Shown piece by piece: positions 29,651 to 56,263 of a stretch of DNA of 59,439 nucleotides. The DNA is from a virus. Position 1 is the stretch's first letter, and every line of letters starts with the position of its first letter. The notes beneath the pieces are model-generated. The model was given only the letters and a program-made list of their open reading frames with translations, did not search any database and had not been told where the DNA came from. The DNA is taken from IMG/VR virus record IMGVR_UViG_3300037459_000125, positions 1 through 59,439 of that record. One strand, written 5' to 3'. The translations under genes and the position numbers were made by a program.

Positions 29651-30571
29651 ATGGGTACTTTCACATTCAACCATCCGGAACTCCTGGAAAGAGATACCAA
29701 AGATATCTTTTTCAAGAATTTCGGCATGATCCCGCTACTCTACACATCCCTCTTCAACACTAAAACTTCAACGAAGGCTTATGAGGATGGGATGCGAGTC
29801 GCGGGAATGGGCACCTTCCACACCAAAGCGGAAGGCACTCCCATCGGATTCGACGATCCGGTATCCGCCAGCGTGGTCCGAACGGTCCACACTGTCTACG
29901 GACTGGGTTTTCGGGTGACGATGGAAATGAGCGACGATGACCAGCACGGCATCATCAGTCAGATGCCCGCTGATCTCGGCGACAGCGCCCGCGACCACCA
30001 GGAGCGACTAGCCTGGAGTCTGGTCAACGACGCATTCGCCGGAAACACCTACACTGGTCTCGTTGACGGTGCGGCGGCTGTATCGCTCTGCAATGCCACA
30101 CACACAAACCTGAAGACGGGGACCACACAGTCCAACGTCCTCACACCTCCGGTAGCCCTCTCGGTCACCGGTCTGGAGTCCCTGATGACCACGGCCTCCA
30201 CGACCCAGTCCGAAGAGGACCGGTACATCAGCCTCACCCAATCAAAGCTGGTCTACCATCCGGATCTCCAACACACAGCCCACGTCCTTCTGAACACGGA
30301 GTTCAGGTCCGGATCATCGGACAACGACCGAAGTACAGTCGTCTCGTCCCGGTCCGGCATCACACCGCTGGAGCGGACGGGTATCCCCTACCTGACCTCG
30401 ACAACGGCGTGGTTCCTCTCGGGGAAGAATGACCTGACCTGGAACAACAGGAAGAGTCTGACCTTCAGCCGAGACAAGGACTCCGATTCGATGGATCAGA
30501 AATTCATGGCGATCTACCGTGCGTCAGTGATGCACCGTGAGTGGAGAGGTTTCTGGGGCTCGAATGCTTAG
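29651..30571 (+). CDS. Major capsid protein
   Basis: 306 residues. N-terminal helix followed by the elongated loop region, a central P-domain-like part (RDHQERLAWSLVNDAFAG) and the C-terminal strand SDSMDQKFMAIYRASV. Length, order and position after scaffold fit an HK97-fold capsid protein. A terminator follows, as often behind capsid genes. Confidence 0.8.
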   Translation: MGTFTFNHPELLERDTKDIFFKNFGMIPLLYTSLFNTKTSTKAYEDGMRVAGMGTFHTKAEGTPIGFDDPVSASVVRTVHTVYGLGFRVTMEMSDDDQHGIISQMPADLGDSARDHQERLAWSLVNDAFAGNTYTGLVDGAAAVSLCNATHTNLKTGTTQSNVLTPPVALSVTGLESLMTTASTTQSEEDRYISLTQSKLVYHPDLQHTAHVLLNTEFRSGSSDNDRSTVVSSRSGITPLERTGIPYLTSTTAWFLSGKNDLTWNNRKSLTFSRDKDSDSMDQKFMAIYRASVMHREWRGFWGSNA

Positions 30572-30658: not shown

Positions 30659-30659
30659 G

Positions 30660-30687
30660 GTCCCCCTCGGGACTGGCCTTCGGGCTG
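30660..30687 (+). promoter_or_regulatory. Double-hairpin leader, copy A
   Basis: Hairpin 1 is GTCCC/GGGAC (30660-30673) and hairpin 2 is TGGCC-TTCG-GGCTG (30674-30687) with a TTCG tetraloop. It lies directly between a terminator and the ribosome site of the 30699 gene. The same set-up with compensating changes occurs at 32559-32591. Confidence 0.65.
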
Positions 30688-30698
30688 AAGGAGAGGTA

Positions 30699-31193
30699 AT
30701 GGCATCTAGAGATTTCATGCCGTTTAGAACCCTAGACGGCTCGCAAGAACAGAGAGTTTCTCGTGGTGTCACCAGCAGCGAGACATTTCTGGTTGGTGAA
30801 CCCATAGCCCAGCAATCTGGGGGGCGGGCAGCGATAGCTACCACTGATCCTTCTACCGTAGTGGGTATTGCTGCTCACCGAAGTACCGACGTAAATGGGA
30901 CTTCCCTCGCAGGGGACACCCAGATTACCCTGTACGGTGTCGGCAGAAACCAACTCTACAAAACTAGGAATTTCTCCACCAGTGGAACGGGAACCTCAGC
31001 GACTCCGGCAGTGACTAGAATCGGAGACTTCGCGGGTCTGATCCTCAACGGCTCTGACTGGTACGTGGACACTGGGGCGAACAACAAGATCTGTGAGATC
31101 GTAGGTTTACGGGACAGGAATGGGCGTGATATTAGCGACCCCAGTCATGTGGTCGAAACCATTGTCTTTACCATCTTCCGGTTCATCCTCTAG
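30699..31193 (+). CDS. Virion-module protein, 164 aa
   Basis: ATG 30699 has AAGGAGAGG upstream; the longer ORF to 30657 would run through the leader. Beta-rich, with similarities in layout to the 29042 protein, so a head-surface or decoration role is possible. Not firmly recognised. Confidence 0.55.
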   Translation: MASRDFMPFRTLDGSQEQRVSRGVTSSETFLVGEPIAQQSGGRAAIATTDPSTVVGIAAHRSTDVNGTSLAGDTQITLYGVGRNQLYKTRNFSTSGTGTSATPAVTRIGDFAGLILNGSDWYVDTGANNKICEIVGLRDRNGRDISDPSHVVETIVFTIFRFIL

Positions 31194-31202: not shown

Positions 31203-32528
31203 ATGAAACGATTCGGATTTCTAGCAACTCTTCTTCTCCTACTCCCGACAGTTGCCGGGGCTCAGGGAAACACCAACACCCTTCCTCCGGCTTGCACAGC
31301 CGCCACCTTGTTGACCACCTGTGTTCCTCAGGTCCAAGGGACCATAGCTCGGGTAACGGATGCGGCCTCCGCAACGGTCTGTACAGGCGGCAGCACTGTA
31401 ACAGTAACTTGTCAGTTTGACGGGACTACTTGGGGCCCAATGGCTAACACCTCTGCTACGGGTGGTGTTTGGACCGGTGCCAACGGCGAGACAATCGACA
31501 ATGCTACCGATGATACTATTGCTTTAACCAATAGTGATACCACTAGCACAATCGCAATTACCTTCCATGACTTTGGAGATACCGACGACGATGATATGGC
31601 CCACGGCAGTATTACTGTCAACTGTACTGACGTTGGTACCGGAGCCGAGAATTGTGACGTGGTATTTCGTGGTGTTGACGGTGGTGTAGAGACAACATTT
31701 TTGACCTTTGACGGCAGTGCCGCGAACGCCAATACCAGATTCGTGGGGCTTAGTGGTGGGATCGGGGCCGACGAAATTGCAAATGACATTGTAGACGGCA
31801 CCGAACTGGCAGACACCATCGTTCTGGATGCCACCTTGGGGATCACCTCCGGGGCTGCCGAAGGCATCGCTATGACCCATGCGATGACCAACGACACCGC
31901 CGAGGTTGCCTTCAACCTAGCCATTACCGCGTCGGACACCAGTCCGTCTACCACAGGTCAGTATGGTTTGTATATCGACAACGTAGCCAGCACTGAGGGA
32001 TTGGACGCCGCCATCGTCATCGACAACAGTGATGCCGACGACGCGGTGATTGCCGGTATCCTCTTCGTAGATGCGGGGGGTGGGTTTACCAACGCGATTG
32101 ACACGGCAGGCGGCAATATCACCACGGGTGCGGCACACATCACTGCTCAGATGCCCGTTGTCTCGCTCGCCAGTGGCGCGCTAACACTCAATACGATCCA
32201 TCTGGCTACGGCTGGTGGGGCCGACTACGACATCCCAGATAGTGCTTGCGATGCCGCCGCAGACCTCGGCAACTGGGTCACGGTGGTCTTGGAGGACGCT
32301 TCGGTAGTCGTCTCGATCACCTCGGACGATGCCAGCAACATCTTCACCGTTCCCGGCCTCGGTGCCCTCACCGCTGGTAACGAACTCGACTCTGTGTCCC
32401 ACACGGTGACAGAAGGACAGAGCATCACGCTGACGTGCTTGACGGCCGAGAACTGGTATTTCACTGGCGGCGTCTCGATGCACACCGATGCGACGATAGC
32501 ATGGGCGGACGGCGGTACAGCAGATTGA
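31203..32528 (+). CDS. Secreted-type fibre-like virion protein with signal peptide, 441 aa
   Basis: MKRFGFLATLLLLLPTVAGA is a complete signal peptide (basic start, hydrophobic core, A-x-A site at about residue 20). The body is repetitive, Thr/Asp/Gly-rich and beta-rich, with a fibre-type segment ARVTDAASATVC...CQFDGTTWGP and a C-terminal part seen in phage fibres. Several Cys are present. Function unknown; probably a fibre or appendage. Confidence 0.65.
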   Translation: MKRFGFLATLLLLLPTVAGAQGNTNTLPPACTAATLLTTCVPQVQGTIARVTDAASATVCTGGSTVTVTCQFDGTTWGPMANTSATGGVWTGANGETIDNATDDTIALTNSDTTSTIAITFHDFGDTDDDDMAHGSITVNCTDVGTGAENCDVVFRGVDGGVETTFLTFDGSAANANTRFVGLSGGIGADEIANDIVDGTELADTIVLDATLGITSGAAEGIAMTHAMTNDTAEVAFNLAITASDTSPSTTGQYGLYIDNVASTEGLDAAIVIDNSDADDAVIAGILFVDAGGGFTNAIDTAGGNITTGAAHITAQMPVVSLASGALTLNTIHLATAGGADYDIPDSACDAAADLGNWVTVVLEDASVVVSITSDDASNIFTVPGLGALTAGNELDSVSHTVTEGQSITLTCLTAENWYFTGGVSMHTDATIAWADGGTAD

Positions 32529-32536
32529 TCTAACTA

Positions 32537-32557
32537 GGACCACTCCGGTCCACTTTT
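32537..32557 (+). terminator. Terminator-like hairpin
   Basis: GGACC and GGTCC arms with a five-base loop, followed by ACTTTT. Weaker than the one at 30628 but in the same position relative to the double-hairpin leader. Confidence 0.55.
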
Positions 32558-32558
32558 G

Positions 32559-32591
32559 GTTCCCCCAGTGGGAACTGGCCCTTCGGGGCTG
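32559..32591 (+). promoter_or_regulatory. Double-hairpin leader, copy B
   Basis: Hairpin 1 is GTTCCC/GGGAAC (32559-32575) and hairpin 2 is TGGCCC-TTCG-GGGCTG (32576-32591). Compared with copy A each stem is one pair longer, with matched changes on both arms. The gene start follows 14 bases later. Confidence 0.65.
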
Positions 32592-32604
32592 AAAGGAAAA
32601 CAGA

Positions 32605-33519
32605 ATGAGTTATCAAAGTAGAAACGGTAAGACTGGGGCCCGAGGCTCCCATTGGCAAAACCCACTACTCGTTAGTGGCGGGCCGTTGGACGACTGTGCC
32701 CGTGGTATAATTGATGGAGTCGATGGTGTCTACAAGATCTGGTATGAGGACTTCGATGAAGTTCTTCTCGACAATCAGTTTGAAACTGTGGGCTGGACGG
32801 TTACAGACAAGAACACAGCCACAAACCCCAGTAATGTAGTCCTTGGCGCAGACCGGGCATTCTTCCTGAACCCCGGCACTAAGGCTGACTCGGGGACTGA
32901 GCTTCAATTCAACATCCCAGGCACCGCAGCCAGCACCAGCAATATGCACAAGGTCTGCCCAGAGATCGTGGACACCGCCACCCTATTTGATGGTCAGGAG
33001 ATCTTCTTCCAGACCCGGATCGGTAGTGTCTCAGACTCAGCAACCGACAACGACTCCAAGTACATCCTTGGATTCTTTGTGAACAACACAGATCTGATAG
33101 ACGATGCTACAGGTGTCCCTGGTGTACCTGCTGGCGGAGGTTTCGGCTTTTTCAAATCTGAGTTGGGCGTGGTGACCGCAGTTTCAACTGAGGCAGCCAT
33201 TACCGCAGTAGGAACTGCGCTAGTCCCGGCTGTGAGTGAGTTGGCTATGACGGTAACTGTCCCCAACTGGCACACCTATGCAGCCAGATGTCGGATCATC
33301 GACGCCAGTGCTGGAACCGGTTTTACCGACTTTTGGTACGATGGTATCCACAGGCTGCGTCTAGCTACAGTCCCTCACGATGCTACCGATACCTGCTCCT
33401 TCACCATCGGTCTACTCAACGGGCCCTCTCAGATTGCCGATATGCACATCGACTACATCCTGACCGGGATCACCAGACCAGGACTCACTTGGCCCTACAC
33501 TGACGGCACCATCTACTAA
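32605..33519 (+). CDS. Concanavalin/laminin-G-like virion protein, 304 aa
   Basis: The order YEDFDEVLLDNQ...WTVTDKN...FLNPGTKADSGTELQF...QEIFFQTRIGSVSDS...FKSELGV resembles a virion protein found next to capsid genes in other phages (jelly-roll, lectin-like; from memory). No signal peptide. Probably exposed on the particle. Confidence 0.6.
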   Translation: MSYQSRNGKTGARGSHWQNPLLVSGGPLDDCARGIIDGVDGVYKIWYEDFDEVLLDNQFETVGWTVTDKNTATNPSNVVLGADRAFFLNPGTKADSGTELQFNIPGTAASTSNMHKVCPEIVDTATLFDGQEIFFQTRIGSVSDSATDNDSKYILGFFVNNTDLIDDATGVPGVPAGGGFGFFKSELGVVTAVSTEAAITAVGTALVPAVSELAMTVTVPNWHTYAARCRIIDASAGTGFTDFWYDGIHRLRLATVPHDATDTCSFTIGLLNGPSQIADMHIDYILTGITRPGLTWPYTDGTIY

Positions 33520-33529
33520 GGGGCCGGCG

Positions 33530-34405
33530 ATGAAACGGCTCCTAACTTTGGGGGCTCTCTTCGGGGGGCTCCTCTTCCCCACGGTCTCTGGGTCTGAGGA
33601 CGTGTTCTCGGTGGCTGCCCATTCCTATGGGGCAGCTAAGTTCACAGCGGACATCTACGGGCACAACGGTCTTGTAGAAAATGCCGAAGAGTCTATTTGG
33701 GACGGCGAAGATGCGATAAGCGCGGGCACTGGACCAGTCCGGTGCTTCTCCAACATGAACACTGGGACTGTACCGACGGCTGCGGCTATCTTCATATCCA
33801 GCGATGATGAGGCCGATGCTGGAGAGGAAATCACGGTGGATGCTCTGGATGTCAACTGGAATCCAGTAACTATCGTCCAGGCTTTGGGTGTCGCGGCAGC
33901 CAGTGGCACCGTTAATGCCCAAATCGGCACAGCGGACCTAATGCGAATCAACCGGGCCTATGTTGCCGGTAGGACGGCTGTCGTCGGAAATATCTATCTT
34001 CACTTGGATGATACGATTGGGACCGATGGCCTTCCAGATACTATTCTGACAGATTTGGTGGCCCACATCACTATCGGCAACAACGAAACCCAGATGGCCT
34101 GCTACTCAGTCCCCAACGACTACACCGCGTTCGTGACTCATATATGTACGGACAATGACACTATTACTGGGTCTGGTACTGTAGACTTCAGACTCCGGGC
34201 CAGTGTCGATGGTCAAATATCCCGAGTTCGATGGGGGCCCCATGTTGTAGCGGACGCCGCTGGAGACTGCCGAAACTTCACCCAGCCCCTGAGTTTCGGT
34301 GAAATGACAGACATTGATATTACTGGGCTGAGTACAGGGGACAGCGCCTCGGCCAATATAGGTTTGGTTCTCGTCAAAAACGGTAGGTCCCTAACTGGCC
34401 CTTGA
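33530..34405 (+). CDS. Virion protein with signal peptide, 291 aa
   Basis: MKRLLTLGALFGGLLFPTVSG is a signal-like N-terminus. The body (DIYGHNGLVENAEES..., PTAAAIFISSDDEADAG, DALDVNWNPVT, MRINRAYVAGRT, TIGNNETQMACYSVP, DFRLRASVDGQ) resembles a virion protein of podoviruses that normally lacks a signal. This is the clearest case of a virion protein with an export signal in this genome. Confidence 0.65.
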   Translation: MKRLLTLGALFGGLLFPTVSGSEDVFSVAAHSYGAAKFTADIYGHNGLVENAEESIWDGEDAISAGTGPVRCFSNMNTGTVPTAAAIFISSDDEADAGEEITVDALDVNWNPVTIVQALGVAAASGTVNAQIGTADLMRINRAYVAGRTAVVGNIYLHLDDTIGTDGLPDTILTDLVAHITIGNNETQMACYSVPNDYTAFVTHICTDNDTITGSGTVDFRLRASVDGQISRVRWGPHVVADAAGDCRNFTQPLSFGEMTDIDITGLSTGDSASANIGLVLVKNGRSLTGP

Positions 34406-34414
34406 GGTAGTAGC

Positions 34415-34978
34415 ATGAAACGGCTTTGTTTTATCGTGGGGCTGATCGGGGCCCTCCTATTCCCTACCCTATCCTTGGCCAAAGAAGTGAAGACCGACCA
34501 TACTCCGTGTGAAGAGATGGACACCGACGCTGCGGTTCCTCTGTGGACCAAGGGTCAGTGGATCGCAACAGCCTGTATCCTCTTGTGTGATGGGTATGCG
34601 GCTGCCGACACCGGAGCGGGCTGCGTAGAGTGGGACTTCAACGACTTCCCCGGTATGCCCGACATGATTATCCTAGAGTACGAACAGGAGTCTGATGATG
34701 ATTGTGGGGCCAACGTACCTCAGTTCACTATCGCCACCGGTCCGATGTCCAACGGGACTCTGACCAGCCAGACCAACGCCAGCTACGTTGGGGACCCCAC
34801 CTATGAAATTGGTTCCTCGGCGGTGGTCATAGACGAAACCAACCCACGGGTAACTATCCTAACCGAGACTGCCCCACTAGACCGGTATATATTCGTCACC
34901 CAAACCGGCACGGACACCAACTGCACCGATATCGACATACGGATGTTCTTCTACAGCCGTAAGACGAACATCTACTAG
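34415..34978 (+). CDS. Cysteine-containing protein with signal peptide, 187 aa
   Basis: MKRLCFIVGLIGALLFPTLSLA has a clear hydrophobic core and an LSLA cleavage site. The mature part has eight Cys, an even number consistent with disulfides. It resembles the preceding gene in the start (MKRL...LLFPT) and in overall beta character. Unknown role in the virion module. Confidence 0.6.
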   Translation: MKRLCFIVGLIGALLFPTLSLAKEVKTDHTPCEEMDTDAAVPLWTKGQWIATACILLCDGYAAADTGAGCVEWDFNDFPGMPDMIILEYEQESDDDCGANVPQFTIATGPMSNGTLTSQTNASYVGDPTYEIGSSAVVIDETNPRVTILTETAPLDRYIFVTQTGTDTNCTDIDIRMFFYSRKTNIY

Positions 34979-34993
34979 GACTGAGGTGATTAG

Positions 34994-37684
34994 ATGAAGC
35001 TCCGGGCTTTACTGGCCTCCGTCCTCCTACTCTTCCCTAGTGTAGCTCTGGGTACTCAGATCGTCGGTGGAGCTGTACCTGCTGGTGGTGGCATAGTTTC
35101 CTTCCTCCAAGGCAGCCTCCCCTCCCTAGGCAGCGCTGACACCGGCTACCTCGCCTTCGTTACCGATGGGGCTGATGACTCAGACTGTGGGCCAAGCGGG
35201 ACTGGTTCAATCCTAGTCTTCTGTATGTGGAACGGCACAGCTTGGGAGGCCACAGGTGACTCAGGCTCGGGCAGCGGGGACAACTTAACAGTAGACGGCA
35301 GTGGGTTAGCTGATGGGAACTTGGCAGACAGCACTCAGCTTAACGTCACCGCCGACGGCAGTTCTCCCTCCCAGATCACCTTCAATATCATCGCCAACAC
35401 CATCGACGAGGATGAGATAGACACGGACTCTATCTTCAAGGACGAGTTGGCGACCGTAGGCGACTTCAACATTGGTGAAACGGTCCACGTAGACGACTCG
35501 GACGCTACTAAGTTCTTCGCCCGGTCCGCAACGCAGCACCTCGCTTTGGTGGGAGCCGCCGAAAAGGGGGCCAACACCTTTACCGGAACCCAAGACGCCG
35601 CTAGTTGGTCTATTACCACAGCGGGAGTCGCCACTTTCATCTCCCTAGACGACAACGACGGCAGCCCTCTGTGGGGGATCAATACCTCAGGCCACATCAC
35701 AGGGGTCCGGTTCGCGGGGCTCGAAGATGAGAACCTAGTCGGTAAGACCTCTGCCGAGGACATCAGTGGTATTTGGAACTTCGGTACCGCCGACGGCCTT
35801 GAGATCCCCAACGGACCAGTGTCCGAACTCACTGGCTCCCCCACCGTCGGTAGTCTTTTCCAAGTTGACGACGGAGCCAACGCCACTGACTGTGCCACAG
35901 GCAGCTCAACCACTGATGTTCTCTGTCTCTACAATGGCTCCGGATGGGCAGCCGTAGCCGCGGGTGGCACCACAGCCTGGGACTCCGTCGGCGACCCCTC
36001 CGGGGACGGGTCCGTCGCTATGGCAGAGCTGGATCAGGACCTCGCTTGGGACACCGGGAACAGCACGGCTGCGGTCTTCGACGGCCTCACCCTTAGTCTT
36101 GACTATGATCCTACTTCCACAGACTCCGGAGCCCAGCATGTTCTAAGGGTTGTTCAAATAAACAGCGGTGCGGATGTTACAGGTCAGCCTGAAGCTCTTA
36201 TTCTTCTCGAAAATCTAGATACTGATTCAGACGATGCTGTAGCCGCCGCTCTATTGATCCGAGGGACTACTGCTGTTCCCATTGCTATTGATCTTTCGGA
36301 CGCCGAGATTGTTACCGCCATCGACATCGGAGCCAACGATATTGTCTTCTCCAGTGGTACCCTTAGTTCCACAGACCTAGAGATCCTGGACGACGGCTCC
36401 ATCGCCTCCAGTGAGATCACCGACAATACTATCACTGCCGCAGATATCGCGGCCACCGTTACGATGGCGGACGAGGACTTTCTGGACTTCAGCGCGGCCC
36501 TGATCGACGCGGCCTCGGAGGGGATCTACCTACCCCGGCAGAACGCCGATAGTTGTGCTGCCTCGGTTGGGGAAGGTCAGATCTGTTGGGATGACAGCAA
36601 CGACAACCTTTGGATAGGTGACGGAACCGCGGCCCAGCAGATGAACCTCTCCGGTATCGGGGCCTTCAGTGACAGCTCGGACCCCGCTATCCTCAACACC
36701 ACCACCAAGGATGTAGTTGTAGGCGCAGCGCAGATCAACACAGCCAAACTAACGGTGGACGGGGATGCCGATCAGGTCCAGTTCACAGTCCAAGGTCACT
36801 CCACTCAGTCATTAGTTACTGAATTCATCGTCCACGAGACCAGTGGTGGGACTGAGTTGTACTCTCTGGATACCAGTGGAGACCTTGAGGTCCAGTCCAT
36901 TCAAGACATCGACGGGCCGGGGACTCTCTGGCAGATTGACATTAACGGCGCAGCGACATTTGTATCAGTCACCACTGGGACCAGCCTAACTCCCTCCATA
37001 GTCTTCAACGACTCCAGCTCGGGCTCGGAAGCCACCGACGCCAGTATCTTCGTAGATGCCACTGATGCTGTAGGAGGTCAAGAGGACGTAGACATGACCT
37101 TCCGGGTTCAGGTCAACTCCACCCTCACCGACCGGATCTTCATCAACGCCGACGGCCACACAGAGATCCAGAACTCCAATCTCCGACTTGCCGATAGTCT
37201 CTACATTCTCGAACAGGCCGATGCGGACGGGGACGTATCCACCTACGGACAGCTTTGGGTGGACAACACTACTCCCCAACTCCTGAAGTTCACAACTGAG
37301 GCGGGAGTAGACACCACCCTCGGAGTCGCGGCCACCGTCGCGGGCACCACCTTCGAGGAGTGCTTCGTGGTGTACGCCCCAACGGCAGAGATCCAAGCCA
37401 CCGACGACATCCAAAGTGTCTGGCGCGCTGCCGCAGCCCTCACCATAACGGAGGTATTCTGCGAGACCGATACCGGAACCGTAACGATGGACATTCAGGT
37501 AGACAGCGGGAGTACCTTAGATGTTATGGGTACCGATCTCGTCTGCGACGTAAGTCCCGGAGAAAACGACAGTACCAGTCTCACAGGTAGTATGGCCGAT
37601 GGTGACCGTCTTGACTTCCTCATCTTCGCGGTAGCCTCCAACCCCAAACGTCTAACCTTGTGTATTGAATATGACTTTGACTGA
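34994..37684 (+). CDS. Large fibre-like protein with signal peptide, 896 aa
   Basis: MKLRALLASVLLLFPSVALG is the signal. The body is a long repetitive beta structure with many Asp/Thr/Gly turns. It carries fibre segments such as GYLAFVTDGADDSDC...MWNGTAWEA and, near residue 530, GQICWDDSNDNLWIGDG. The C-terminal 110 residues with paired Cys look like a globular tip. Likely a main tail or head fibre. Confidence 0.65.
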   Translation: MKLRALLASVLLLFPSVALGTQIVGGAVPAGGGIVSFLQGSLPSLGSADTGYLAFVTDGADDSDCGPSGTGSILVFCMWNGTAWEATGDSGSGSGDNLTVDGSGLADGNLADSTQLNVTADGSSPSQITFNIIANTIDEDEIDTDSIFKDELATVGDFNIGETVHVDDSDATKFFARSATQHLALVGAAEKGANTFTGTQDAASWSITTAGVATFISLDDNDGSPLWGINTSGHITGVRFAGLEDENLVGKTSAEDISGIWNFGTADGLEIPNGPVSELTGSPTVGSLFQVDDGANATDCATGSSTTDVLCLYNGSGWAAVAAGGTTAWDSVGDPSGDGSVAMAELDQDLAWDTGNSTAAVFDGLTLSLDYDPTSTDSGAQHVLRVVQINSGADVTGQPEALILLENLDTDSDDAVAAALLIRGTTAVPIAIDLSDAEIVTAIDIGANDIVFSSGTLSSTDLEILDDGSIASSEITDNTITAADIAATVTMADEDFLDFSAALIDAASEGIYLPRQNADSCAASVGEGQICWDDSNDNLWIGDGTAAQQMNLSGIGAFSDSSDPAILNTTTKDVVVGAAQINTAKLTVDGDADQVQFTVQGHSTQSLVTEFIVHETSGGTELYSLDTSGDLEVQSIQDIDGPGTLWQIDINGAATFVSVTTGTSLTPSIVFNDSSSGSEATDASIFVDATDAVGGQEDVDMTFRVQVNSTLTDRIFINADGHTEIQNSNLRLADSLYILEQADADGDVSTYGQLWVDNTTPQLLKFTTEAGVDTTLGVAATVAGTTFEECFVVYAPTAEIQATDDIQSVWRAAAALTITEVFCETDTGTVTMDIQVDSGSTLDVMGTDLVCDVSPGENDSTSLTGSMADGDRLDFLIFAVASNPKRLTLCIEYDFD

Positions 37685-38447
37685 TCGGGGAAAACTACTC
37701 GGACTCCTTGGTCTACTCTGTCTCCTTTCCTCCCCCACCGGGGCTGGGATCATCTACAAGGAGAGTGCCGGTGGCGGAGGTGGTGGCGGAACGATCTTTA
37801 GCGAGAACTGTTCGAGCCTGTCTGAGTGGACGGCTGCTAGTAGCGGGTCGGCCAGTGTGGACGTGGTCGCAAACCAGTGCCTTGGCAACCTCGCAGCCAA
37901 CTTCGAGGATGCGGCCATACTCCAAGGCCCGCTCGACAGTACCAGTGAGTTCTGCTCAATGAAGGTCATCACGATTAACACGGCCGATTCCAACAAGGTC
38001 GGTTGTATATTCAGAGCACCTGCCACTCCAGGCGTTCATTACTCAGCATTCTTCAACAACGGCAACGGTTCGTATTTGATAGAAAACCAGACCGCCGGAC
38101 ACGACTTTGTGGACGGGGTACTCGGGGGCACGAACTGTGGCTGCTCTGCATATGTGGACATCGGCAACAACGACTACATAGGCATTACGTTGTCCGGCAC
38201 GGGTTCATCAACGACGGTGAACTGGTGGGACTTTGGTAGCTCTGCCCCGTCTGACCTCGAAGACCCCGGCACTTGGGGTGATGCCCACACGGTCACTTGT
38301 ACCTGTTCCACGAGCGAGATCGCAACCGTGGTCACAGCAGAAAACTTCACCCTGATTGACGTAGCCGGGGACTGTGGACCTGAGATGACGGGCCTTGCAG
38401 CTAGTGAAATCACCATCGACGACTTCGCCTGTGGGGACACACCTTGA
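37671..38447 (+). CDS. Protein with signal peptide, 258 aa
   Basis: ATG 37671 lies inside the end of the previous gene. The signal is MTLTDRGKLLGLLGLLCLLSSPTGAG. The body reads like a lectin or jelly-roll domain (IFSENCSSLSEWTAASSGSA, then CSMKVITINT...CIFRAP). Seven or more Cys. Coupled to the next gene by TTGA. Confidence 0.55.
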   Translation: MTLTDRGKLLGLLGLLCLLSSPTGAGIIYKESAGGGGGGGTIFSENCSSLSEWTAASSGSASVDVVANQCLGNLAANFEDAAILQGPLDSTSEFCSMKVITINTADSNKVGCIFRAPATPGVHYSAFFNNGNGSYLIENQTAGHDFVDGVLGGTNCGCSAYVDIGNNDYIGITLSGTGSSTTVNWWDFGSSAPSDLEDPGTWGDAHTVTCTCSTSEIATVVTAENFTLIDVAGDCGPEMTGLAASEITIDDFACGDTP

Positions 38448-39562
38448 AGTGGATACTGCTCTTCCTACTTCTGTTTGCTTCGCCCGCCTGGGCCACCGGT
38501 AACGACACCGAGGAACTATGTGATAGCCCCGGAAGTGGAGTTACCTGTCACTGTAGTGAGCCACTGACCGTAAATGATGGATTTCAGGATAACGTATACA
38601 ATCCGTCTGGTTCTACCACAAAGCCGTGTATACCCGGTGGTAATCCACTTCAGCCCTCATCAGGTTCAACGCTTACTTTTGTTCTAGGGTCCGCTGTTAC
38701 ACCTAGTAGCGGCCTGGAGGAACTAACGGTTGGCGGGGATGGCTATGTAGCAAAAATCGCAAGTGGCAGTGCGTGGACGCTTCGACAAACCAAGGTGACG
38801 TTCACCAACAATACATGGTGCTATAGATACTATGCGCTCTACGATCCCCTATTTGAATGCAACGGAAACTGTAACTTCAAGTGGCCAAGACAGTCTGACA
38901 CCAACTTTTTAGCCACAAACGCCGGGATGCAATCATCGGTCGGAACGTCGGTTGACGCCGGTACTCATGTGAAGTTCAATTTGGGCCAAGATCATGTTCT
39001 GACGAATGAGCAGTGCCAGAACTCCCCTGATTCGGGTTGTAGCTCCCAAGCCAAACTTATTAGACGTGGTGATAGTGTTTCGTTTGAGGATATGCAGACT
39101 GGCTGGTCGAGAATGGAAATTTGCTACGACCACAATCTAACCGCGGCGCAGGTCACGGGATCAAGTGGCCTAAACGCTCTCTATGGATCATCCCTAACAC
39201 GGCCCGGCGACAACTACCTGTATATGCGTGTGAGAATCACGATGGTAACGGGGCCCAACATAGGCGACGTACAGAGTTACGGTCCCGGTCGCTTAAATCT
39301 TGTTCAAACCGTCATTGATACAGGCCGCGCCGATAGAGCCACGATCTTCTCCAGTGGTGTGGGAAGTCCGGGGTTTACCCACACTCGTTCTGTGGTTTGG
39401 CTTGGCTACATGATGACTACCGAAAAGTCCCCCGCTGACCCAGCCTACTGGATCGGGGGGGCCGCAGAGATCGAAGGCGGCACTCCGGTAGTCCCCTCCC
39501 CCACCGAATCCGAGGGTGTGAACTTCGGCTCCGGAGTCAACTTGACAATGGTCATGCCTTGA
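38444..39562 (+). CDS. Cysteine-rich protein with signal peptide, 372 aa
   Basis: TTG start; MKWILLFLLLFASPAWA is a textbook signal peptide. The mature protein has about ten Cys (CDSPGSGVTCHCSEPL...CIPGG, CYRYYAL...CNGNCNF), a pattern of exported, oxidised proteins. The next gene has the same FASPAWA cleavage region, so the signals are related. Function unknown. Confidence 0.6.
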   Translation: MKWILLFLLLFASPAWATGNDTEELCDSPGSGVTCHCSEPLTVNDGFQDNVYNPSGSTTKPCIPGGNPLQPSSGSTLTFVLGSAVTPSSGLEELTVGGDGYVAKIASGSAWTLRQTKVTFTNNTWCYRYYALYDPLFECNGNCNFKWPRQSDTNFLATNAGMQSSVGTSVDAGTHVKFNLGQDHVLTNEQCQNSPDSGCSSQAKLIRRGDSVSFEDMQTGWSRMEICYDHNLTAAQVTGSSGLNALYGSSLTRPGDNYLYMRVRITMVTGPNIGDVQSYGPGRLNLVQTVIDTGRADRATIFSSGVGSPGFTHTRSVVWLGYMMTTEKSPADPAYWIGGAAEIEGGTPVVPSPTESEGVNFGSGVNLTMVMP

Positions 39563-41343
39563 GGTGGTTGGTATTGGTACTGATCCTGTTTGCCTCTCCT
39601 GCTTGGGCGGGGGTGCGGTCTCATGCCAGTAATTGCCTGAGCAGTGTCTCCTGTACTGCTGGGATGGATACTGAGATGTGCTTCCAAGTAGACACCCAAG
39701 CCTTCTTTATTTGTGATGGGGCCACTACTACCTTTATTCAGATAGGCTCCGCCGGGGCCGGCGGAACCCATCCCATCGCAGCGGGTGACTACGCGGCTGA
39801 CTCGGTGGATGTGGATGCGATTTTGAAGGTGGGAAACGCCGCATCGAATCCCGACCTGGCCGGAGACGAGATGTGGTTCGGCCCCGGTGGCCTGATCTTC
39901 GAGGGTACCGTGGATGACTTTGAGGGCACCTTGGGGGTTGGAACCCTGTCATCCGACAAAATATGGATCCTCCCGGACCTTACCGGAACCCTTGCCCTGA
40001 TCGGTTCACCAATCTTCACAGGAGATCCCACCGGGCCAACGGCTTCCGGTGGAGACAGTGACTTCTCGCTTGCCACTACGGCGTTTCACCAAAGCGAGTT
40101 GCTCACCGAGGATGAGGTAGAGGCTTTCATATTCGACACGGATACCGAGAACGTCTCGGGTGTTTGGACATGGAACGACGATGTCCAAGCTAAATTTGGA
40201 ACTGATGCCGATGCAGGTATTTACTACCTTTCTGCTACGGATAAGATGATAATTTTCGGTCCGAATATGTTAATTGATGCGGAGCAACAAGGGAAGGTAA
40301 CAGTAGTGGGCGGGTTGTTAGCTTCCGCCAGCGACAACGAGTTCAGCCGCTTCGGAGACAGCCCGACACACATCACTGATCTTGACTTGCGGGATCGACT
40401 TGTAGCTACCTTGCCGCGAAACAGCCTAACCCTGTCGTCTAGGACTGGTCTATTCGTACACGAGGACACCGATGCCCTCAGCGGAACCATCGACAAGGCG
40501 GGGCAGGCACTCAATACTTTCGCGTTCACAACTGACCTTTCGACGGTGGACAACAGCGTGACGACCAATGCTGGCGGAGCGGTGGGAAACAAGTCCGCGT
40601 TTACTCACCGTGGAGAGGGCACATACCAACTAGGCGGCGGCGTCTCTGCCCAGGTTAAACTTGGGGGAGCTAATGAGGACGGCACCATCGTAGACGGTTA
40701 CGCCCTCCATGCCGTAGGCCCCGATGGTGGAACCAGTGGAACCGCTGGAGACGGTATCACCCGGGCTATGGGTCTATGGGTCCGGGATGGTGAGTCAGGG
40801 ACCAACATAGAGAACTACTACGGGATACGCATCGACGACATCACCGCCCTCTCCGATTCCGGGGTTGAGGTAGGGATCAGGCTCGACGGAGCGGACGACT
40901 ACGCACTGTGGTTCAACAACGATTCCGGGACTGCTAACGACGGGATCACCTTCGGAGCTGATGCGACGGTGAACCTCTACCGGAGCGCGGCGAACATCCT
41001 AAAAACCGACGACACCTTCATAACCGCTACAGACCTCCATTCTCTCGGTGGGTTCGTGGGGGACGTGGAGACCGTCACTGGAACTTCAGCAACCCTCGGG
41101 GCCGACGATCATATCATGCTTATCGATGACGACACCGCTGGTGGGGCTGTTACTATCACCCTTCCCGCATGCGCAAGCCACAACGGTCGGCAGTACCATG
41201 TCAAGAAACTAGGGACCACCGGGAACGTCACCATAGACGGCAACGCCAGCGAAACTATCGACGGGGGACTAACCGCTGTCCTAACAGCACAGTACGAGTC
41301 CGTTGGCCTCGTCTGCGACTCTAGCAACTGGAGTATCTTCTAA
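39559..41343 (+). CDS. Tail fibre-like protein with signal peptide, 594 aa
   Basis: TTG start; signal MRWLVLVLILFASPAWA. The C-terminal 85 residues (HIMLIDDDTAGGAVTITLPA, GRQYHVKKLGTTGNVTIDG, ETIDGG, YESVGLVCDSSNWSIF) match a C-terminal domain well known in phage tail fibres. The centre is repetitive. A real fibre domain behind an export signal is unusual. Confidence 0.7.
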   Translation: MRWLVLVLILFASPAWAGVRSHASNCLSSVSCTAGMDTEMCFQVDTQAFFICDGATTTFIQIGSAGAGGTHPIAAGDYAADSVDVDAILKVGNAASNPDLAGDEMWFGPGGLIFEGTVDDFEGTLGVGTLSSDKIWILPDLTGTLALIGSPIFTGDPTGPTASGGDSDFSLATTAFHQSELLTEDEVEAFIFDTDTENVSGVWTWNDDVQAKFGTDADAGIYYLSATDKMIIFGPNMLIDAEQQGKVTVVGGLLASASDNEFSRFGDSPTHITDLDLRDRLVATLPRNSLTLSSRTGLFVHEDTDALSGTIDKAGQALNTFAFTTDLSTVDNSVTTNAGGAVGNKSAFTHRGEGTYQLGGGVSAQVKLGGANEDGTIVDGYALHAVGPDGGTSGTAGDGITRAMGLWVRDGESGTNIENYYGIRIDDITALSDSGVEVGIRLDGADDYALWFNNDSGTANDGITFGADATVNLYRSAANILKTDDTFITATDLHSLGGFVGDVETVTGTSATLGADDHIMLIDDDTAGGAVTITLPACASHNGRQYHVKKLGTTGNVTIDGNASETIDGGLTAVLTAQYESVGLVCDSSNWSIF

Positions 41344-42803
41344 TGGCATATCAACCATTTACAGAATCAGATAAAACAGCCTTTGGAGAACTAAGTGTTG
41401 CTGAACTGACACCAGTAGTTCAGCTACATTTTCCATATAACGTCAATGATTTTCTTGTAGATGCGAGATTGAATAATGGAGCAGCCACAGTAGACAGTAA
41501 CCGTCTTAAGCTTTCTACGGGGGCTGCTGCAAATCAGTCGGCTCAATTACTCTCAAAAAGAGCAGTTACATATCAACCGGGTCAAGGGGGTTTGTGGAGA
41601 GGTACGGCGGTGTTTACAGCAGGTGCCGCTAACAGTACTCAATATATAGGGATTGGAAGTAGCAGTGATGGATACTTCTTCGGGTTTAACGGAACGGCCT
41701 TTGGTATTATGCGCCGACAGGGGGGTAGTCCAGAGGTAAGATTACTCACCGTAACAACAGGATCATCCACGGCTGAAGATATTACAATTACATTAGATGG
41801 GGATGCTGTTGCAACGGTTACGGTTACGAACACTGCAGACACCACACTCACAGCCAATGAAATAGCGGCACATGATTATTCAAACCTAGGACAAGGTTGG
41901 GCAGCTCATAGTATGGGAGCAACTGTAAGGTTTGAATCTTACAACGCAGCTTCTCAAACCGGTACTTATTCTTTGAGCAGCGCGACAACCGCTGTCGGAA
42001 CATTTGGACAAGACGTAGCGGGGGCAGCTCCCACTGAAACTGTCGTTGCTCAAACTTCGTGGAATGTAGACAAAGCTGCTGGGGCTGAAGACCTTCCGAG
42101 TTTAACCTTTACTAATGGAAATGTGTTTCAAATTCAGTATCAGTGGTTAGGGTATGGAGCAATCAATTTTTATATAGAACATCCTGGAGACGGTGGTTTT
42201 CATCTGGTTCACAGAATACAATACGCAAACTCCGCTACAGTCCCTTCGGTAGATAATCCGACACTTCCTCTATGCGCAGCCGTTAAAAACACCAGCAACA
42301 CTACAGATATTGTTATGTTTGTTGGTTCAATGGGTGGATTTATAGAGGGAAAGGAATCAGAGTTAGGTATAAGGCGTGGAGCATCTTCGGGTGAAGTCAC
42401 AGTAGGGACAACAGAACTTCCTCTACTTACTATTCATAATAGAATTATACACAACAGTGTTGTGAATCGTAAAAGGATTAGACTCGCCTTTGCGGTATTG
42501 TCTAACGACGGCACCAAGTCGGGGACGATAAAGTTCAAGACGAACGCCACTTTAACGGGAGCGGTGTTCTCTGATATAGATGCTTCTAACTCTGTCGTAA
42601 GAACAGATACTACTGCAACAGCCATAACTGCCTCAACAGGTGTTGAACAATTCGATGTCGCTCTGCCGAAGTCAGGACAGGTTGTTATTGATTTACATGA
42701 CCTGAAGATTGAGCTTGAGCCGGAAGATTTCCTTACAATATCTGGGCTTGGCTCAGCGGCTTCCGCAGCTTTTACAGTATCGGTAAATTGGGTGGAAATA
42801 TAG
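41343..42803 (+). CDS. AT-rich foreign-looking virion protein, 486 aa
   Basis: Its base composition is clearly lower in GC than both neighbours, with many A/T-ending codons. It therefore seems to come from another genome. No signal peptide. The start (QPFTESDKTAFGELSVAELTPVVQLHFPYN) and the segment RKRIRLAF recall an uncharacterised marine viral family that may be fibre-like (memory only). ATG overlaps the preceding stop. Confidence 0.6.
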   Translation: MAYQPFTESDKTAFGELSVAELTPVVQLHFPYNVNDFLVDARLNNGAATVDSNRLKLSTGAAANQSAQLLSKRAVTYQPGQGGLWRGTAVFTAGAANSTQYIGIGSSSDGYFFGFNGTAFGIMRRQGGSPEVRLLTVTTGSSTAEDITITLDGDAVATVTVTNTADTTLTANEIAAHDYSNLGQGWAAHSMGATVRFESYNAASQTGTYSLSSATTAVGTFGQDVAGAAPTETVVAQTSWNVDKAAGAEDLPSLTFTNGNVFQIQYQWLGYGAINFYIEHPGDGGFHLVHRIQYANSATVPSVDNPTLPLCAAVKNTSNTTDIVMFVGSMGGFIEGKESELGIRRGASSGEVTVGTTELPLLTIHNRIIHNSVVNRKRIRLAFAVLSNDGTKSGTIKFKTNATLTGAVFSDIDASNSVVRTDTTATAITASTGVEQFDVALPKSGQVVIDLHDLKIELEPEDFLTISGLGSAASAAFTVSVNWVEI

Positions 42804-42819
42804 AGGGTTTGTGCTAACC

Positions 42820-42831
42820 TCCCCGCGGGGA
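42820..42831. repeat. Perfect palindrome TCCCCGCGGGGA
   Basis: Same 12-mer as 15982-15993 and 16536-16547, with near copies at 18630-18641 and 27536-27546. Here it lies just upstream of the lysis cassette and covers most of the 35-base spacer. Confidence 0.7.
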
Positions 42832-42838
42832 CCGTGAT

Positions 42839-43117
42839 ATGACCAAGTGGCAGAGAGGCGTAGGAGCTACCATAACGGCGGCGGCCCTGATCTTTGGGGG
42901 TAAGGCATGGGTGGGGCATCTGGCCCAAGCGGGAGAGGACCACAGGAGTCTAACTGAGGCCCAAAAGACCCAGAAGATGCTGGTGGGCCTGACCTCAGCC
43001 ATCAGCTCCAGGATTCAGTTGGAGGATGCGGCATCGGCTCGGGACGTGAAGCTCTGTGAGGAGGGATTGATTACCAACAAGACTGTTTGCAGGCAAGCTC
43101 GCCTGAGAATGCAATAG
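42839..43117 (+). CDS. Small membrane protein of the lysis cassette, 92 aa
   Basis: One membrane span at about residues 8-27 (VGATITAAALIFGGKAWVG), then a helical tail with two Cys. It stands immediately before the putative holin and spanins, so a holin, antiholin or lysis regulator role is possible. Not proven by sequence. Confidence 0.55.
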   Translation: MTKWQRGVGATITAAALIFGGKAWVGHLAQAGEDHRSLTEAQKTQKMLVGLTSAISSRIQLEDAASARDVKLCEEGLITNKTVCRQARLRMQ

Positions 43118-43127
43118 GAGTACCAAG

Positions 43128-43292
43128 ATGGACAATCTAGACAAGTATGTGGAGATCGCCTTGTTGGTGATTGGTGTGTTTGCGGCTATCGCAACCATCA
43201 CCCCCAACGAGAGCGACAACAAGATCGCGCAGTTCCTCCTCAACATCATCAATAAGTTGGGCCTGAACATTGGCAACGCCAAGAACCAGTAG
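43128..43292 (+). CDS. Holin-like small membrane protein, 54 aa
   Basis: ATG 43128 follows AGGAG. One hydrophobic span (ALLVIGVFAAIATI) and an amphipathic C-terminus. It ends two bases before the i-spanin start. Size and position fit a pinholin or holin. Confidence 0.5.
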   Translation: MDNLDKYVEIALLVIGVFAAIATITPNESDNKIAQFLLNIINKLGLNIGNAKNQ

Positions 43293-43294
43293 TC

Positions 43295-43552
43295 GTGGGT
43301 TGGGAGATCTACGCAGGCATCGGAGCCGCGGCAGCCGTAGTGGTCGGTGTGATCTACATCGCCATGCGAATGATCCGCAAAGAAGCCCGAGCCGTTGGAG
43401 GTGAACGTGAGGCCCGAGAGAAACTGGAAGAGTTCATCGAGCTGGATAAGAAGCGCCACGCGCTGGACGGCCTTCCTGTTCCTCTTGGTAAGCGTGAACA
43501 ATCTCGCCGGTTGCGCGTTCTTCTCGAAGCCCGTGAACGTGATCGGGATTGA
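43295..43552 (+). CDS. Inner-membrane spanin (Rz-like), 85 aa
   Basis: N-terminal membrane span (IYAGIGAAAAVVVGVIYIAM) followed by a charged helical domain (REAREKLEEFIELDKKRHAL), the design of i-spanins that bridge the periplasm. GTG start directly after the holin-like stop. The o-spanin gene begins inside it in another frame. Confidence 0.7.
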   Translation: MGWEIYAGIGAAAAVVVGVIYIAMRMIRKEARAVGGEREAREKLEEFIELDKKRHALDGLPVPLGKREQSRRLRVLLEARERDRD

Positions 43553-43685
43553 GCGGTGCCCGGTGATGTCCAATGAGGCCATCCTGAACTGGGTAGAGAT
43601 CTACCCTCGGACCAACGTACACCTTCAGGCTTGGATGGGACAAACCATCCTACACTGTGAAAAGGTGGAGGCGATGCTTAAGTAA
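43407..43685 (+). CDS. Outer-membrane lipoprotein spanin (Rz1-like), 92 aa
   Basis: GTG 43407 has GGAGG five bases upstream. FLFLLVSVNNLAGC ends in a lipobox LAGC, so the mature protein would be a lipoprotein of the outer membrane. The gene overlaps the i-spanin by 146 bases in the +1 frame, as in lambda-type Rz/Rz1. This shows that the host is Gram-negative. Confidence 0.75.
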   Translation: MRPERNWKSSSSWIRSATRWTAFLFLLVSVNNLAGCAFFSKPVNVIGIERCPVMSNEAILNWVEIYPRTNVHLQAWMGQTILHCEKVEAMLK

Positions 43686-44560
43686 TGCCCGTCGTCCTGC
43701 CCACCTACGACTCGTCTAAGGTCTCCAATTTGAGCCTGAGCACCCTTCAAATAGGAGTTGATTTGGGTGGGACTTGGTTCGAGACTGGCGGGTCAAACAC
43801 AAACAATCTTAGAACCGCCGGGTTCTCGTTCGATTTCGATATTTCCAACAACACCGGTGGATTGGTTTTAGCCCCGCGGCTCCCATTCACCACCGCCACT
43901 ACTGATCCCGCTGGAACTGGTGAAACTGCGGGAACTTGGACCTTTACCATCATTACCTCTGGAGGAATAACAGACCCCTCATCCGTACAAACCATCAGTT
44001 TGTATGGTGTGGTTACCCCAACTCCCACCACATGGTCCGATAGTTTCCTCCCCAGTACCCAACTGACCACACTCGGGTCCACCTATCTGATCGAAACCAT
44101 CACAGGTTCTAGTTCCTCCTGGGTTTTCAATGGTGCGACATACGATTTGGTATTTAATTTCGACTTCCTCACCAATTACACTGAGACTGTGGGAGGGGCT
44201 ACTCTCACCAGCCCAATGGCAGTAACAGCCAACTCATCTAATTGGACAGGGGTCGTTCAGTTCATCATTACGGGGACTGAAAGTGCGTTGGTCCAGTTCT
44301 TAAGTGCTTCCTACGTCGGCAACATTCACAGTTGGCACACAGGACTAGCCAACCAGCCCCACGACCGACGGGCCCGAGTGGTTCACGACTACATCACTGG
44401 TCTGTCCTACCTCTCCGATGAGGCGGTCCCCGACGGATTCCGGCACGGCATCATGGTCCACCCAGACCAGTGGGACCCGGTGGACCCCTTGGAAGACAAT
44501 CCTTTCACACCTCCCCCGGGTGAGGGAGTGGTGGACGATGAGATTATAGATGTGGAGTAA
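43685..44560 (+). CDS. Hypothetical virion protein, 291 aa
   Basis: Beta-rich Thr/Ser/Gly protein with a segment SSKVSNLSLSTLQIGVDLG and a proline-rich acidic tail. No signal peptide. Located between the lysis cassette and the adaptor. Not recognised. Confidence 0.55.
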   Translation: MPVVLPTYDSSKVSNLSLSTLQIGVDLGGTWFETGGSNTNNLRTAGFSFDFDISNNTGGLVLAPRLPFTTATTDPAGTGETAGTWTFTIITSGGITDPSSVQTISLYGVVTPTPTTWSDSFLPSTQLTTLGSTYLIETITGSSSSWVFNGATYDLVFNFDFLTNYTETVGGATLTSPMAVTANSSNWTGVVQFIITGTESALVQFLSASYVGNIHSWHTGLANQPHDRRARVVHDYITGLSYLSDEAVPDGFRHGIMVHPDQWDPVDPLEDNPFTPPPGEGVVDDEIIDVE

Positions 44561-44563
44561 CTG

Positions 44564-45256
44564 ATGGGAACAATGACACGCGGCGACTTCAAAACTGAGC
44601 TGGGGTTCCTCCTTCGTAACCGTACCGACTCGGACGCCACGAACGAAACTCGGATTGAGCAGTGGATCAACCAAGCGTACCACTATATGTGCCACCCTTC
44701 GGTTCACGATTTCTACCAGATGAATTCGTTCGATACCAGTACAACCTTGGTTACTGGGGACAATACATATAGTGTAGAAACATTAAACTCCAGAACTATG
44801 ATAGCAATAAATTCAATCTCCCACATTAAAGCCACTACATTCACAAACACAACTAACAGGACAGCCCTCAAACCCAGAAGTATCCACTGGTTTGAGCGCA
44901 GGACCCTGCAATCTGGACCTCCACTTTTCTTTGCTAGAAGCGGTGGCCAGATATTTATCTCAGGGGTTCCTCGTTCCCAGGAGAGCGGACAGCTTCTCAG
45001 GATACATTACACCCACTCTCCCGATAATTTGAACCCAGACACCGCCCAAACCGTTCTCCCCCGCTACTACGACCGAGTCCTCCTGAAGTTCGCACAGTCA
45101 TTCGCCGAGGGTGATCTAGGTGACCGGGCGAGGGCTCTCCTAACACTCAAAGAAGCATCAGGGCTGTTGAACAACACCCCTAACGATCCGGAACTCGACG
45201 CTGAACAAGTTGGCAGCCGAGTAGACCTTGTCCTCGAAAACCCGATGGGGCCATAA
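44564..45256 (+). CDS. Head-tail adaptor (tail tube A / gp11-like)
   Basis: 230 residues. RIEQWINQAYHYMCHP near the N-terminus, RPRYYDRVLLKFAQSFAEGD and a helical end fit adaptor proteins that join portal and nozzle in podoviruses. The nozzle gene follows two genes later. Confidence 0.6.
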   Translation: MGTMTRGDFKTELGFLLRNRTDSDATNETRIEQWINQAYHYMCHPSVHDFYQMNSFDTSTTLVTGDNTYSVETLNSRTMIAINSISHIKATTFTNTTNRTALKPRSIHWFERRTLQSGPPLFFARSGGQIFISGVPRSQESGQLLRIHYTHSPDNLNPDTAQTVLPRYYDRVLLKFAQSFAEGDLGDRARALLTLKEASGLLNNTPNDPELDAEQVGSRVDLVLENPMGP

Positions 45257-45257
45257 A

Positions 45258-46883
45258 ATGAACCTTAAGAAGTATCTATTGACTCTGATCGGTGTCGGTT
45301 TACTCCTACCCTCTGGGGCGGGGGCGGAGGTCTGGGCAGCTTCAGGGTTCGAGGACAGCCCTGCTAACTCCGATGCGGCCTCCGGTGGTGCCGGGAAGAT
45401 CCGCGACACCCGTGGGGAGGTCCGTCAGCGGTTGGAGGTCGAGCATTTCTTCGGGGACACCGCGGCCTCCGAGGATGATGATAATGGGCTTCACCGGATT
45501 GGGGCGGCCAGATGCTACGTTCAAGACGCAGCACCCACAGGACTCTTCGATTCTCATTCCGGTATCGGTCTTATCACTGATCTGGCAGACCACAACACCT
45601 CAGGGTCCGGGGAAGGAACCCTCGCTAACACAGCCACCGGAGCTGCGGGGGCTGCTGTAGAGGACGATGTCGGGCATGCTAGGTGCTGGATTGATGAAGA
45701 TGGGGCGGATGGTAACACCAATGATGAGTGTACGGGGAGCGCAACCTCGGCAGGATCCGGTTCACCCACAGACTCCACCCCCGCTTGTTGTACTGCGGCA
45801 GACACCGGTACCTGTGATCTGGATGACAACAAGATGTATGTCTACCTCGGAGTGGCAGGGGATGGGGGCACCCCTCCGACGGGACTGGTGGCTGGTTGGC
45901 AAGAAGTCAAAACCCGACCGGATGGTACCGGTTCGGGAGTTCGGGTGAAAGCTGGGGCCCCCAACATTCTCAGCAACTCAGACTTCGACTTTAATGGTTG
46001 TACTGGGACCACCCGACCAACTGCTTGGTCTGAAACTGGGAGCCCAACCTTCACCTATGCGGGTGGGGGTACTACCCAGGGGGTAGGTTGTAATGTACTG
46101 GTCACAGATGTGGGCGGTGGGGACGACATCCGACAGACACTCACCAATGTAAAGGGAGGCACCACCACCTATCGAGTAACCGCTCAAGTCAGGGAAACAG
46201 CATCGGATGATATTTGTACCCTCTCCACCTCTGGGGCTGGGACAGAAGTGACCGGGATGGTGTCCTCTGGCACCGCTTGGGTGCAGCTTGATGGGTTCTT
46301 CATTACCAGTGCTGCGACAGATACGGTTACTATAATCCTGACCAACACAGCAGCCGGAGATATTTGCCACTGGGATCACATTGGAGTCTATCGACAGGAG
46401 ACGATAGAGGTTCCGCAGGCAGGGATTATTGCGGTCTATGATACCTACTTGACTTCCGACGGAGCTGATATTGAGGAGGCTGGCGTAGGCTACGCTGATG
46501 TCCCCAGCCTATCCATCACCATCGTTCCTCCAACGGAAGGATACGTCGTTAGTGTCCGTGCCAATATCTCAGTGGGCTGTGATGGCTCTTGTAATATCGG
46601 TAGTGGAGGCGGTAACAACGAGGGTGTCATCTGTCGGTTGGAGGTGGGGGGCAATGAAGTGGCAGGTACAGTCCGCTCCTTTGTGGCGATGGACTCTACT
46701 CTAGACCCGGGTGGTCAGATCATTATTGACTATATTAATGTTATTCCTATAGCGGGTACCTCACTCGTCTACACTGTCGGATGTAAAGAGGTGGGGGCGA
46801 ACGCGATGATCTTCAATCTAGAAACCGCTGATGGAGACGATACCGAGTCCTCTCTGTCTCTGATCGCCTTCCCCCCACACTAG
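45258..46883 (+). CDS. Secreted-type virion protein with signal peptide, 541 aa
   Basis: ATG 45258 begins just after the adaptor stop; the ORF open to 45228 would spoil the signal. MNLKKYLLTLIGVGLLLPSGAGA is the signal. The mature protein is Gly/Thr/Asp-rich with many Cys (CTAADTGTCDLDD). It includes a carbohydrate-binding-like stretch (NILSNSDFDFNGCTGTTRPTAW...) typical of jelly-roll modules. Role unknown. Confidence 0.6.
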   Translation: MNLKKYLLTLIGVGLLLPSGAGAEVWAASGFEDSPANSDAASGGAGKIRDTRGEVRQRLEVEHFFGDTAASEDDDNGLHRIGAARCYVQDAAPTGLFDSHSGIGLITDLADHNTSGSGEGTLANTATGAAGAAVEDDVGHARCWIDEDGADGNTNDECTGSATSAGSGSPTDSTPACCTAADTGTCDLDDNKMYVYLGVAGDGGTPPTGLVAGWQEVKTRPDGTGSGVRVKAGAPNILSNSDFDFNGCTGTTRPTAWSETGSPTFTYAGGGTTQGVGCNVLVTDVGGGDDIRQTLTNVKGGTTTYRVTAQVRETASDDICTLSTSGAGTEVTGMVSSGTAWVQLDGFFITSAATDTVTIILTNTAAGDICHWDHIGVYRQETIEVPQAGIIAVYDTYLTSDGADIEEAGVGYADVPSLSITIVPPTEGYVVSVRANISVGCDGSCNIGSGGGNNEGVICRLEVGGNEVAGTVRSFVAMDSTLDPGGQIIIDYINVIPIAGTSLVYTVGCKEVGANAMIFNLETADGDDTESSLSLIAFPPH

Positions 46884-56250: not shown

Positions 56251-56263
56251 GAGAATTTCACCG

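Follow-up and report, generated by a model that had tools for sequence, protein, structure and literature searches.

In the textbook account tailed phages are assembled entirely in the cytoplasm up to lysis, and to our knowledge none exports its appendage proteins to the cell envelope for folding. Virion proteins made with signal peptides are familiar from filamentous phages (coat proteins pIII and pVIII), although these are inserted in the inner membrane and assembled during extrusion, with no route to a tailed capsid. Here we examine eight signal-peptide genes in the late region of a metagenomic viral sequence, IMG/VR record IMGVR_UViG_3300037459_000125 ("the window" being the whole 59,439-nucleotide stretch analysed), which resemble several described systems in part. 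Lambda Lom, whose gene lies among tail genes, likewise carries a signal peptide (PMC12309495), and the T4 antiholin RI is likewise a late protein with a cleaved Sec signal peptide and periplasmic maturation (PMC8385771); however, Lom is a single outer-membrane beta-barrel, whereas the window encodes eight soluble, Cys-rich, partly fibre-like proteins, and RI is a lysis regulator rather than an appendage. Roseobacter phage CRP-902, Alcaligenes phage vB_Af_QDWS535, Caulobacter phage RW and the Manatee Spring phages share a related capsid (26–32%) and a late gene order like that of the window (capsid, tail adaptor and, in some, a stabilisation protein and GNAT), but in six genomes have no signal-peptide proteins in the virion module. 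Target proteins of phage diversity-generating retroelements have been described without the signal peptides found on bacterial ones (PMC6199706), and we found no report of signal-peptide fibre sets in an open-access subset of the literature. The eight genes, named below by start position, are:

31203..32528, + strand: predicted exported protein 1, 441 residues; signal peptide 31203-31262 (MKRFGFLATLLLLLPTVAGA/Q); 8 mature Cys; ribosome-binding site AGGAG
33530..34405, + strand: predicted exported protein 2, 291 residues; signal peptide 33530-33592; mature part phrog_8198; 4 mature Cys
34415..34978, + strand: predicted exported protein 3, 187 residues; signal peptide 34415-34480; 6 mature Cys
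34994..37684, + strand: predicted exported protein 4, 896 residues, the largest fibre-like one; signal peptide approximately 34994-35053; 10 mature Cys
37671..38447, + strand: predicted exported protein 5, 258 residues; signal peptide 37671-37745; 10 mature Cys
38444..39562, + strand: predicted exported protein 6, 372 residues, TTG start; signal peptide 38444-38494 (LKWILLFLLLFASPAWA/T); 10 mature Cys
39559..41343, + strand: predicted exported protein 7, 594 residues, TTG start; signal peptide 39559-39609; 6 mature Cys; tail fibre family matches
45258..46883, + strand: predicted exported protein 8, 541 residues, between the tail adaptor and the stabilisation protein; signal peptide 45258-45326; 14 mature Cys

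A sequence-only reading of the window had placed signal peptides at these eight starts, and the placement held up. All eight genes begin at true open reading frame (ORF) starts as given; for 37671 and 45258 a longer mechanical ORF begins 6 and 30 nt further 5', respectively, and a signal peptide is obtained from either start. Every N-terminus has a basic n-region, a hydrophobic core (measured at 8–16 residues) and a small-x-small cleavage site, the pattern of the Sec/signal-peptidase-I type, and inspection by eye showed neither a lipobox nor a twin-arginine motif in any of them. Since a first, cruder scorer (0.5% positives among ORFs of shuffled window DNA) missed some signals in relatives, a second was built and calibrated on two 50-kb stretches of E. 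coli K-12 with 22 known exported proteins, 19 of which scored at least 8 (positives mostly 7.8–10.6); outside the exported set, scores above 8 came only from LdtD, which is in fact exported, and from the polytopic SsuC. On this scale the window proteins score, in gene order, 10.8, 8.3 (33530, the weakest), 10.3, 9.3, 9.5, 11.1, 10.8 and 10.4. Across 74 loci with distantly related capsids (30–34% identity) the same scorer called 4/864 genes positive, a rate at which at least seven positives in about two dozen module genes would be expected with a probability of order 1e-11 (simple binomial). The other morphogenesis genes of the window score negative, except 42839 on the first scorer, a 92-residue membrane protein adjoining a spanin-like pair that reaches 6.4 on the second. 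The signals are gene-specific, since the virion proteins of 32605 and 41343, interspersed among the eight, lack them, and we consider Sec export of the eight, as read from these features, highly probable.

Two accounts that dispense with cleavable export signals seem very unlikely. We see only a slight chance that there is no export, i.e., that the N-termini are hydrophobic docking peptides on cytoplasmic virion proteins or reflect mis-called starts: homologues of two of the mature domains do work without a signal in other phages, but the full n/h/c pattern recurs in eight proteins, the signal is kept in orthologues, and the Cys enrichment and even counts described below fit an oxidising compartment. 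Ribosome-binding sites are present at most of the eight starts, and candidate starts 3' of the signal mostly lack one, with no alternative start within 90 codons in 38444. Very improbable, too, is an inner-membrane anchorage through uncleaved N-termini, with virions assembled or held at that membrane. Uncleaved signal-anchor domains are known in phage signal-arrest-release (SAR) endolysins, and the two scorers disagree on the cut in 34994 (18 vs 27 residues), yet the cores are short and are followed by A/G-x-A/G cleavage sites, with full scores on a cleavage-aware scale, so the permanent membrane anchoring once put forward has become the less likely option. Nor does any of the mature parts show a clear second membrane helix, the best candidate being a marginal stretch in 34994, and T4 RI, formerly considered a SAR protein, has a cleaved signal peptide (PMC8385771). 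Pfam searches found neither a muralytic domain nor a match to an outer-membrane beta-barrel family in any of the eight, whose sizes (187–896 residues) are unlike the small ones of lysis proteins such as SAR endolysins and antiholins.

The mature parts are also set apart by cysteine. They hold 68 Cys in 3,415 residues (2.0%), compared with 14 in 5,966 (0.23%) for 15 other module proteins (Fisher p = 4.5e-18), which bears out the Cys-richness noted earlier, and the mature count is even in 8/8 (8, 4, 6, 10, 10, 10, 6 and 14 in gene order; 1/256 by chance). The full-length, Cys-containing signal-peptide proteins of close relatives, near-identical copies being counted once, have 6, 16, 4, 12 and 6 Cys and are thus even in 5/5. 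Several Cys pairs are spaced 9–12 residues apart, including three close pairs in 34994 (spacing 10–12), and a hairpin-like, Cys-paired motif, TDGADDSDC...CMWNGTAW, occurs in the N-terminus of 31203 and again in 34994. This pattern fits folding in a disulfide-forming compartment, and the eight proteins are likely to be disulfide-bonded. Periplasmic export and oxidation, as originally suggested, are thus well supported by signal peptides, high and even Cys content and signals kept in orthologues, from which we infer cleavage and oxidation in the host. Structure prediction, proposed as a check, yielded low-confidence AlphaFold models: those of 34415 (with its only orthologue; predicted local distance difference test score, pLDDT, 34) and 33530 (with 20 cyanophage homologues; pLDDT 51) are too poor to place the Cys pairs.

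Virion ancestry can be traced for two of the mature parts. Residues 42–284 of 33530 match phrog_8198 (E 3.6e-20), a neck-cluster virion protein of Kyanoviridae (Syn1_111; S-H9-1 gp083, annotated as "virion structural protein") whose genes in T4-like cyanophages mostly lie beside neck and terminase genes. Unlike 33530, the cyanophage proteins start MAQWNKDAQ..., have no signal peptide and 0–4 Cys, and belong to T4-like phages; all 26 full-length homologues from viral contigs (26/26) begin MAQWN... without a signal. The 33530 signal stands where these homologues have their own N-terminus, and none of its 4 mature Cys has a counterpart at a matching place in the aligned cyanophage proteins. Because these distant homologues begin without a signal, the 33530 signal appears to be a genuine addition to a virion-type domain and not a mis-call. 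In fold searches an approximately 100-residue fragment of the 33530 model resembled small proteins of phages, among them a cyanophage "virion protein," and uncharacterised phage proteins also matched; the PDB fold matches to birnavirus VP2 and PHM had TM-scores near 0.25 and were not used, and sequence searches against solved structures gave nothing useful.

For 39559 the matches are to fibre families (phrog_22682, E 1.6e-5; phrog_15797, E 2.4e-6), and its last 100 residues form a domain of minor tail, baseplate and fibre proteins in many phages. Cys538 and Cys586 flank this C-terminal domain and occur together in 0/6 homologues checked; a signal likewise occurs in 0/6. Most simply, these comparisons suggest that 33530 and 39559 arose from ordinary virion domains through the gain of an export signal and of paired cysteines. 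The virion- or fibre-like character of the protein bodies is supported by domain matches for 33530 and 39559, as first read, and by position only for 45258, but not for the other five; no fibre-family match was found for 31203, 34415, 34994, 37671, 38444 or 45258.

The signals themselves look like reusable front ends, because similar ones precede unrelated mature parts. Specifically, 38444 and 39559 have 12/17 signal residues in common, as if the signal had been swapped or duplicated between neighbours, and the first 25 residues of 33530 and 34415 are 52% alike; in both pairs the mature parts are unrelated.

In close relatives of this phage, i.e., those with capsids 59–74% identical, signal-peptide genes likewise lie 3' of the capsid gene and 3' of the tail adaptor (contig L003, 10400 and 10898; L005, 6601, 7065 and 8855; L022, 7623). 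The calls for L003:10400, L005:6601 and L005:7065 rest partly on reading the sequence by eye, the first escaping the scorer owing to an acidic residue that offsets its n-region charge and the other two scoring just 8.0. Homologues that start downstream of the signal had been named beforehand as evidence against export, and here the outcome is split: the distant cyanophage homologues of 33530 lack the signal, whereas it is kept both in the 34415 orthologue L003:10400 (46%, with 6/6 Cys kept) and in the 45258 orthologue L022:7623 (28% by BLAST, same gene position). Elsewhere in the clade the mature parts diverge between phages while signals persist. Six annotated relatives gave one signal positive, an early-region membrane-like protein in L013, and scans of viral contigs with 33530, 34994, 34415/L003, 45258/L022 and 46893/L022 turned up no additional relatives of the window. 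In the distant relative L034, a signal-peptide DUF1996 protein with 10 Cys (9703-10881) is encoded among fibre genes, and secreted proteins may thus have entered the fibre gene slot more than once.

We propose that the eight genes encode adhesive appendage proteins (fibre or spike subunits) that are exported, cleaved, oxidised and joined to virions at lysis, a proposal we regard as evenly poised. The proteins would be made with a cleavable Sec signal peptide, and pass to the host periplasm, where signal peptidase I would remove the signal and the disulfide machinery of the host would oxidise the mature part, while capsids, tail adaptor and tube would assemble in the cytoplasm as usual from signal-less proteins; after breakage of the envelope by holin, endolysin and spanins, the finished appendages would meet and dock on the released particles. 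Other phages are known to add fibres or spikes late, once the particles are finished (T4 long tail fibres, P22 tailspike), and by this analogy docking at lysis would be biochemically reasonable. The first and last 127 bases of the window match exactly (1-127 = 59313-59439), giving a complete circular map of 59,312 bp, of which the eight genes make up 18%. It is this share, together with the late-operon position, the domain ancestry and the lack of any other obvious long-fibre gene in the complete genome, that points to the virion, although whether the eight belong to it is close to an even call. More tentatively, and just short of an even chance, the clade as a whole may build its virion in two compartments, with a cytoplasmic capsid and tail tube and periplasmic, Sec-exported, disulfide-bonded fibres joined only at lysis, the signals having been grafted onto virion domains that then gained paired Cys.

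Several points weigh against this proposal, and some of them favour its strongest rival, a host-envelope or secreted role in which the proteins are exported and oxidised but serve outside the virion, in the periplasm or at the cell surface, as receptor masks, superinfection-exclusion factors, adhesins or secreted binders, with the late operon providing timing only; coating of the host surface, raised in the sequence-only reading, is a possible form of it. Lambda Lom, for all its place among tail genes, ends in the host membrane and not in the virion (PMC12309495), L034:9703 is a single secreted protein in a fibre region, and five of the eight mature parts (all except 33530, 39559 and 45258) have no recognisable virion relatives in phage records or family libraries (for 31203 and 37671, family libraries only), and 45258 has none outside its own clade. 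Moreover, the phage is metagenomic and virion membership is a prediction from its genes; eight separately exported proteins would have to oligomerise and find virions after dilution at lysis; and disulfides alone are no proof of export, because the tail hubs in the crAss001 structure are stabilised by disulfides (PMC10172136). Still, we consider the host-envelope role doubtful, if a real contender: eight genes and 18% of a genome are far above the usual scale of accessory genes, two of the mature domains belong to virion families, 45258 lies between tail genes in a place kept by its orthologue, and the genome would be left without an obvious receptor-binding protein.

If the appendage proposal is true, this phage would break the rule of cytoplasmic assembly by devoting 18% of its coding capacity to exported, oxidised appendages; virion maturation would depend on Sec and Dsb as host factors, and there would be a natural way of making receptor-binding proteins stabilised by disulfides. 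It would also show a cytoplasmic virion domain relocated to a new compartment via an added signal and Cys pairs. Even if the proteins are located in the host, eight late genes devoted to its envelope would be unusual.

The remaining features of the late region, in which the signal-peptide genes are interspersed, are:

29651..30571, + strand: major capsid protein, used as the query for relatives
32605..33519, + strand: module protein without a signal peptide, interspersed among the eight; kept in the clade (L003, L005, L022)
41343..42803, + strand: virion structural protein without a signal peptide (phrog_1645, E 4e-38)
43295..43552, + strand: inner-spanin-like protein with an N-terminal transmembrane segment and charged coil; no family match
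43395..43685, + strand: outer-spanin-like lipoprotein overlapping the 43295 gene; LAGC lipobox; no family match
44564..45256, + strand: tail adaptor-like virion protein without a signal peptide (weak phrog_2941 match)
46893..48770, + strand: tail "stabilisation" protein, named by position in relatives; homologous to L022:9459

Late genes run on the + strand from terminase (22558) through portal-like (25373), scaffold-like (27569) and capsid (29651) genes to the signal-peptide module, and then through the 41343 virion protein, a lysis cluster, the tail adaptor (44564), 45258 and 46893 to a GNAT gene (49324), downstream of which large internal-type proteins extend up to 55907; the terminase, portal, scaffold and internal protein names come from gene order and relatives. 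The DNA polymerase A gene spans the joined window ends. Within the lysis cluster, the two-frame overlap at 43295-43685 resembles an Rz/Rz1-type spanin pair, and the LAGC lipobox of the second partner suggests a host with an outer membrane (diderm) and hence a periplasm. A Halobacteriovorax host was considered through the metagenome-assembled genome (MAG) that holds relative L004, but we claim no host, as the bin is weak evidence: genes of the L004 contig look viral, many being homologous to the window, and two sampled contigs of the Halobacteriovorax-named MAG differ in GC (38% vs 46%).

Small proteins on either side of the capsid gene (29042-29641 and 30657-31193) are 26% identical over 84 residues and are possibly paralogues, perhaps duplicated decoration or head proteins. 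The GNAT acetyltransferase (49324-49830) lies 3' of the tail genes and has similar positions in CRP-902, QDWS535, L013 and L022. Further downstream, 56153-57316 encodes a conserved late protein without a Pfam match that is 40% identical to 19801-20811 of the L022/L023 contig. Two tRNA genes, tRNA-His(gtg) at 16345-16420 and tRNA-Asn(gtt) at 18360-18435, separate the early from the late half of the genome.

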